From Fimbriimonadaceae bacterium (GTDB lineage: Bacteria > Armatimonadota > Fimbriimonadia > Fimbriimonadales > Fimbriimonadaceae): a stretch of DNA of 64,000 nucleotides. This document shows positions 19,595 to 20,883 of the stretch, in pieces (the stretch's first letter is position 1; each line of letters opens with the position of its first letter). A model generated the notes under the pieces. That model did not search any database and was not told the origin of the DNA. It worked only from the letters and a program-made list of their open reading frames with translations. Position numbers and translations under genes: made by a program. Where the stretch lies: positions 1,582,605 to 1,646,604 of the forward strand of contig JAHBTE010000001.1 in NCBI GenBank assembly GCA_019638675.1, given 5' to 3'.

Positions 19595-20785
19595 CTATTC
19601 TTTAAACAAACTCAAGGTAACCCCCATCGGAGCCGGGCCGCGATCGCTGGCTCGCTGGTTGAACTGAGCCGCTCCTCCGCGCATGCCGAGCCACACCAAA
19701 TCTAACCGCGAGAACTTGCCAACCTTGGAATCGTATACGCCTTCGCCGTAGCAGGTGGCGGAATACGATTTGTTTCCGTCGGTGATCTGCGCCGAGCCTG
19801 TGTATTCGATGACTTGGCTACCGTTGCTGTTGCGAACCAAATTCATGCGGATCGCGATGTTCTTAATATCTTGGTCGCGCCATTCTGGATTTTGACCGCG
19901 CACGTTATCGAGTAACGCTGTTCTAGCAATGCTCCGCGCGACCGAAATCGGAACCGTTCCCGCACCACTTGAATCGGGGACAAACGATTGGGTTTTGGCA
20001 ACGCCCACCCAGGTTTCGTTCCACGCCCATTTGGTGAAATCCATAAATGCGTTGGAAGTGCGCTCAGCTTCGGTGATTCTTCGACCAGAGCGGTCGCCGG
20101 ATCCACGCGGCAGATCACGAGAATTCACTCGGAAGATGAGTTCGCCGCTCACGTCGGGCGGGTAAGTGGCTTTCACGGCAGGAATCGGCGAGTTGGCATA
20201 ACCCTTAGATTGGCGTAGGGCATCCCAGCGTTGAATGGCTCGCCTCAGCCGCGCTTGAATATCTGCGGGGTTAGAAGCGGCAGCGAATTTGCCTTCCAGA
20301 TACTCGCCGTTTGGCCCCATCATGTAAATGCCTTGTTTGGTGCCTGGGTGGTTCCAATCACCGGGCGGCATGCTTTCTCCGTACTTCTTAAAAAAGAGGT
20401 GTGCCGGGTCGTCTTTCACCCGGTTCAGGTTGCCCGGATCTTCAGGGTAGAGCATATAAACTTCGTCGGCAACGGTGACGAACTGAGCGCTGAGTCTAAT
20501 AATTTCTTGGTCTGACCAGACCAATTGTCGTCCGCGGACGCCATTGTTTCACGTACAGCCCAGCGGGTGCCCGTTCATTGTCCAGAACAGGATGGGCCGC
20601 CCGAGTCGTTTTGCTTCTTGCACGGCGGGCCAAAACTTGTTACGCCAAGGGATTTCCTTGTATCTCTGCTCGCTGGCATCTGGCTGGATGAATGCCAGGT
20701 AATCACGGAAGTTCTGCGCGGTCGGCGTGTGGTTCGGGCCGCTGGCAACCTGCGTGGTGAGCATCGTGAGCAGAGCGGAGATCAT
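19595..20785 (-). CDS. Secreted thioredoxin-like protein with in-frame UGA
   Basis: One frame is open from ATG 20785 to 19595 except for a single TGA at 20551-20549. Residues 1-20 look like a short signal peptide. PILFWTMNGHPLGCT just before the TGA resembles a thioredoxin-type strand and active-site loop, and the same frame continues NNGVRGRQLVWSDQEIIRLSAQF, as expected for one protein of about 396 residues. The TGA follows Cys-Thr, and 24 bases after it a hairpin TTGGTCTGGTCAGACCAA (20524-20507) has a GGTC loop. It may be a selenocysteine codon, a nonsense mutation or a sequencing error. Without recoding, only a TTG restart at 20524 remains. The C-terminal 150 residues are beta-rich and unrecognised. 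Confidence 0.55.
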
Positions 20786-20883
20786 TGTTAGATTATACGA
20801 TGGCTTTCGGTTAATCCGTATTCAATTTTGCATATAGGATTGGCGATTATTGGCACGAATTCGATTCGGTATGATTGCGCATC

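Follow-up and report, generated by a model that had tools for sequence, protein, structure and literature searches.

The SECIS element of E. coli fdhF is a short hairpin, which is located after the UGA codon and carries a GGUC apical loop. According to the bSECIS model, a G is found within the first two loop positions, the loop lies 16-37 nt after the UGA and the folding energy amounts to -7.5 kcal/mol or less (PMC13188914). The catalogue of 2026 lists 119 prokaryotic selenoprotein families and subfamilies, CxU proteins being among them, as exemplified by the thioredoxin-like Sec.1 (PF13192), UshA-like (NF041198) and ferredoxin-thioredoxin reductase (NF041072) families (PMC13188914). According to the deep-Sep work, known selenoproteins all seem to possess Cys homologues by now, whereby its authors conceded that families without Cys homologues may be missed by their method (PMC12013277).

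The family described here is absent from Pfam, NCBIfam and the 2026 catalogue, the known family closest to it being VPGUxxT (NF041383, NF041382). None of the catalogue models available in NCBIfam and Pfam recognises it above cut-off, with PF13192, NF041198 and NF041072 giving no hit at all. A literature search combining selenoproteins with Armatimonadetes, Latescibacteria or Fimbriimonas revealed no description either, which does not exclude an earlier mention. While selenocysteine (Sec) decoding itself is standard, the family and the near-absence of Cys forms within it are novel to the extent that this could be assessed.

The gene and its predicted product

The window, i.e., the whole stretch of 64,000 nucleotides that was analysed, stems from a Fimbriimonadaceae genome of 2.85 Mb (98% complete) and carries on its minus strand a gene (19595..20785; ATG at 20785, stop codon at 19595-19597) for a protein of 396 residues including Sec79. 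An initial sequence-only reading had noticed a frame that is open on either side of one TGA (20551-20549) adjoining Gly-Cys-Thr, and this codon (codon 79; 20549..20551, minus strand) was confirmed to be the single in-frame TGA of the gene, residing in the context NGHPLGCT-[U]-NNG. The Cys77 codon (20555..20557, minus strand), which completes a C-T-U motif and is proposed to encode the redox partner of Sec79, is conserved to at least 90% in an alignment of 58 sequences. The same reading had considered Sec decoding of the TGA as possible; given the complete machinery encoded in the genome and the TGA found in all close homologues, we regard it as nearly certain, albeit on sequence evidence without any experiment. 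A TATAAT hexamer (20792..20797, minus strand), positioned 6 nt 5' of the ATG, was identified from the sequence as a possible promoter and suggests a leaderless mRNA; the close relatives L055 and L056 likewise possess a TATAAT just upstream of the ATG.

The AF2 model calculated with 58 family sequences (pLDDT 92, pTM 0.89) predicts two domains. The first of these (residues 40-194; 20204..20668, minus strand; pLDDT 92) is assigned to the thioredoxin fold, with highest similarity in VIA-align to the DsbD-like domain 3f9u (Z 12.6, rmsd 1.9 over 103 residues), followed by 1sen (ERp19/TXNDC12; Z 11.5), AGR2/AGR3 (about 11) and the DsbD C-terminal domain (9.9). Foldseek alone returned no match below E 0.001, and a search of solved structures by sequence yielded nothing useful. 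The second domain (residues 216-393; 19607..20140, minus strand; AF2 alone, pLDDT 90) is beta-rich and beta-barrel-like with a helical insert; no structural match above Z 8 was found for it, and below that value it resembles small beta-barrels. As judged by eye, the N-terminus (20735..20785, minus strand) is signal-peptide-like, as are those of most relatives, some members showing a lipobox instead, and the Latescibacterota form seems to lack such an N-terminus. The notion of a thioredoxin-like secreted protein, put forward from the sequence at first, thus holds at the level of prediction, with the fold being backed by the model and its structural matches and the export by N-termini inspected by eye.

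As the active-site helix of the model begins at residue 80, Sec79 is predicted to be located at its N-terminus. The protein does not fulfil the definition of classical thioredoxins (CxxC and cis-Pro), its loop reading U-N-N-G and an invariant Gln151-Gly152 taking the place assigned by sequence inference to the cis-Pro. Profile comparisons conflict on the CxxC register, with Sec79 corresponding to the first Cys in the DsbD-like hit L149 and to the second Cys in hhalign.

Based on these features, a mechanism may be suggested. Sequence evidence, although not an experiment, strongly supports that the UGA is decoded by SelB and tRNA-Sec, directed by a GGUC-loop hairpin downstream; the product is predicted to be exported and to place Cys77-Thr78-Sec79 at the start of the active-site helix of its thioredoxin-like domain. 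Sec79 would most likely serve as redox-active nucleophile with Cys77 resolving it as a selenenylsulfide. The protein would hence be an envelope thiol/selenol oxidoreductase, no substrate being tied to it, and the barrel-like domain may bind the substrate. We consider a redox role probable, as inferred from sequence and predicted structure. A rival explanation is that the protein is a selenoprotein in which Sec79 is structural or binds a metal rather than acting as nucleophile: if Sec79 is the first residue of the C-x-x-C, a Gly (Gly82) stands where the second Cys is expected, and the invariant Gly152 occupies the cis-Pro position, both by sequence inference. Against this, a Cys precedes Sec by two residues in nearly all members (by one residue in the L003 type; L124 is a member without Cys at -2), which resembles a redox pair, and so the structural or metal-binding function is judged unlikely.

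Selenocysteine machinery

A search of the genome for selA, selB, selC and selD, as had been proposed along with the initial reading, identified the full set, meeting what is expected of a genome encoding bacterial selenoproteins. The tRNA-Sec (anticodon TCA, 72.9 bits), SelB (611 aa, 345 bits at a cut-off of 242), SelA (441 bits) and SelD (342 bits) all exceed their curated cut-offs, and their genes lie far apart from one another and outside the window. The selD gene (C1:651775-652689) itself contains one in-frame TGA, and SelD is thus probably a selenoprotein, too.

Within the phylum Armatimonadota, where relatives are present in 60 of 291 genomes, a selA match over cut-off was found in 45 of the 50 genomes with TGA members as compared to 93 of the 241 others (Fisher p 1e-11; genome lists read off by hand), and the wider collection gave 37 of 40 further family-bearing genomes. 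The five TGA-bearing genomes of the phylum that lack a strong selA match (G004, G013, G014, G027 and G070) are fragmented assemblies, 73-97% complete, and the selA-negative exceptions as a whole, those of the wider collection included, are mostly incomplete or fragmented.

These data bear upon the idea that the UGA is read as another residue, e.g., Cys or Trp, without selenium, be it by readthrough or by a general reassignment of the code. Such a reading draws support from the Cys which remote relatives possess at this column, but six of the 28 long open reading frames of the window end in TGA, which is hence a normal stop in this genome, the genome encodes the TCA-anticodon tRNA of the tRNA-Sec type together with all sel genes, and the presence of the family tracks selA. 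A decoding without selenium is therefore regarded as very improbable.

Conservation of the TGA column

Relatives of the protein, which were collected with patterns excluding the Sec codon so that the sample is not biased towards TGA, amounted to 171 in a scan of the genome collection, 80 of which were kept. The family is common in Sec-decoding Fimbriimonadaceae and is found in Planctomycetota, Latescibacterota and Marinimicrobia, too; the scan placed relatives in Fimbriimonadales as well as in individual MAGs that bear the labels Gemmatimonadota, Chloroflexota and Rhodothermota. Among named relatives, isolate ACE_ARM8 (CP075366.1, 95% identical) is the closest. Viral contigs contained no relatives by the patterns used, and clustering of open reading frames in 1.5 kb flanks gave clusters which overlie the family gene itself, without an obvious conserved neighbour.

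Aligning homologues at the TGA had been named as a check, and its outcome was uniform among close relatives: all 114 aligned rows (102 distinct contexts, as rows include repeats) possess TGA at the Sec column and none possesses Cys. Together with the Cys of remote relatives, this fulfils the definition of an in-frame UGA conserved at a thiol/redox-like position. Two paralogues in the same genome each contain exactly one TGA, and this in the same column (GHPTGCT-U-NNG and GDPRGHC-U-QNG). The latter context belongs to the L003-type paralogue (L003:1729-1731 and relatives), where a vicinal Cys-Sec replaces Cys-Thr-Sec. Downstream of the TGA, substitutions as compared to the relative L054 number 9/6/90 at codon positions 1/2/3, and the frame following the TGA is therefore under purifying selection.

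An arrangement of two genes, i.e., a 78-residue secreted peptide followed by a separate reading frame, is mechanically possible, since a 309-aa frame may start near TTG 20524. However, the predicted thioredoxin-like domain spans the TGA with high confidence, and the codons directly following the TGA are among the most conserved of the 58-sequence alignment, leaving this arrangement with hardly any plausibility. A nonsense mutation, which the sequence-only reading had still allowed for, or a pseudogene or sequencing error in an ordinary gene, as a lone stop within an otherwise open frame may indicate, is practically ruled out by the same TGA in all 114 rows from several phyla and in both paralogues and by the purifying selection 3' of it.

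The downstream hairpin

The proposed bSECIS hairpin TTGGTCTGGTCAGACCAA (20507..20524, minus strand; core stem 20509-20522, GGTC loop 20514-20517) begins 24 bases past the TGA with its loop 31 nt after it, and these positions, given beforehand from the sequence, were verified. The fit to bSECIS geometry proposed at that stage (a loop starting with G, 16-37 bases from the UGA) stands as well and is conserved. In the alignment, 98% of the cells are paired. In an energy scan, the window's own best hairpin reaches -7.4 kcal/mol, slightly short of the published limit of -7.5 (PMC13188914), and the family meets the bSECIS definition including this limit, with 85 of 102 distinct genes passing. A strict hairpin with a G[G/T] loop follows the TGA in 79 of the 102 distinct genes, compared to 207 of 3411 (6%) in-frame positions drawn at random from these genes. 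Of the 30 sequences in the window subgroup, 28 combine the GGUC loop at +31 with a stem of 5 bp or more; the larger group and the other subgroups possess the same kind of hairpin with the loop at +22/23. An Rfam search of 20400-20600 with E up to 10 returned no SECIS family and merely a chance miRNA match.

Between TGA and hairpin, the palindrome CGTCCGCGGACG had been noted, and it is indeed present. In the window subgroup it corresponds to a second, upstream hairpin GGCGTC-CGCG-GACGCC (20527..20542, minus strand), which is indicated by the RNAalifold consensus and a Gly codon bias and is probably an accessory stem.

Codon choice provides a further view on these elements. Of 30 sequences in the window subgroup, 28 use TCA as the Ser codon at the hairpin, although TCA makes up just 5% elsewhere in these genes, and 25 use GGA as the Gly codon at the upstream hairpin (9% elsewhere). 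The other group avoids CGY (CGC/CGT) entirely for its Arg codon (0 of 51, as compared to 56% elsewhere), and here the type of Arg codon is linked to the codon before it (NCC-AGR 24 and GGC-CGR 22 versus 2 and 2; p 1e-9, a value inflated by shared ancestry), a linkage that would fit two alternative stem pairings. A simple covariation count was positive in the larger subgroup only, and modestly so; the window subgroup gave none, its sequence being nearly invariant. Shuffling synonymous codons within columns left the mean folding energy unchanged, which is explained by the codons being nearly fixed already, whereas resampling from pooled codons did shift it, with z values of -5.7 for the window subgroup and -3.2 for the L003 subgroup, but not in the rest (-0.9). 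With covariation and shuffling both uninformative, RNA-level support in the window subgroup hence rests on codon choice.

Remote relatives and the scarcity of Cys forms

No Cys form exists at the ortholog level among the relatives examined, while Cys forms do exist in the wider superfamily. One full-length remote member (L134) possesses Cys at the Sec column. A remote thioredoxin-like subfamily has Cys in L139, L141-L143 and L145-L147 and TGA in L144 and L148; its contexts, DDEFC[U]TNARTLRA on the side of the latter two and DEEMP[C]ANARTLRA, document that Sec and Cys forms coexist there. Another remote group (L150-L153), from other Armatimonadota families, carries TGA in a C-U context, e.g., RC[U]GGAFALRA. 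Ser or Asp is found at the Sec column in four remote members only (L136, L137, L138 and L140), which have lost the neighbouring Cys, too; the genomes of three of them (G144, G110 and G145) gave no selA match, and that of the fourth (G109) has selA. According to a quick tree, the non-TGA members require at least four changes, with L134 nested within the L002-type clade, L137 (Ser) on a long branch with the window clade and L136, L138 and L140 forming a separate clade, long branches rendering these placements uncertain.

It is conceivable, though we lean slightly against it, that these enzymes are obligately Sec-dependent, meaning that Cys cannot replace Sec. If so, lineages would either keep the Sec machinery or, without it, lose the protein or retain it with its redox residues replaced, i.e., Ser or Asp at the column and the preceding Cys gone. 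Should obligate-Sec families exist, finders that require Cys homologues would systematically miss them. The present family looks like a blind spot of this kind, as no close Cys form was found for it and routine gene prediction would truncate it at the TGA. With it, phyla that have received little study gain an inferred envelope function dependent on selenium, and a single protein becomes available on which one may test why Sec is used and not Cys.

Comparison with known systems

As compared to the fdhF SECIS, the window hairpin is likewise short, follows the UGA and exposes a GGUC apical loop, but differs in the loop distance (+31, and +22/23 in the other subgroups) and in its flanking sequence, which is unrelated. 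Among protein families, the N-terminal domain shares its fold with Thioredoxin_7 (PF13899), the DsbD C-terminal domain, AGR2/AGR3 and TXNDC12 (Z 9.9-12.6). Thioredoxin_7 hits six of the 58 members (best E 9e-4) and not the window protein. Unlike these proteins, the family lacks a CxxC, possesses the invariant Gln-Gly at the cis-Pro position and carries the additional beta-barrel-like domain. With the catalogued CxU selenoproteins it shares the Cys-x-Sec spacing (PMC13188914). The closest comparison is that with VPGUxxT, likewise a thioredoxin-like domain with Sec in its active-site loop: a profile-profile comparison by hhalign gave a probability of 89% (E 2e-6, 116 columns), whereas single family members were hit weakly (best E 8e-4) and the NF041383 cut-off of 275 bits was not met (L101 16.8 bits, window protein no hit), so that, as judged from these profiles, only distant homology may be assumed. 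The V-P-G-U-x-x-T motif is not fulfilled, the window family having HPLGC-T-U-NNG instead; in the hhalign alignment, Cys77 stands opposite their U and Sec79 opposite their second Cys/Thr, and the C-terminal parts of the two families differ.
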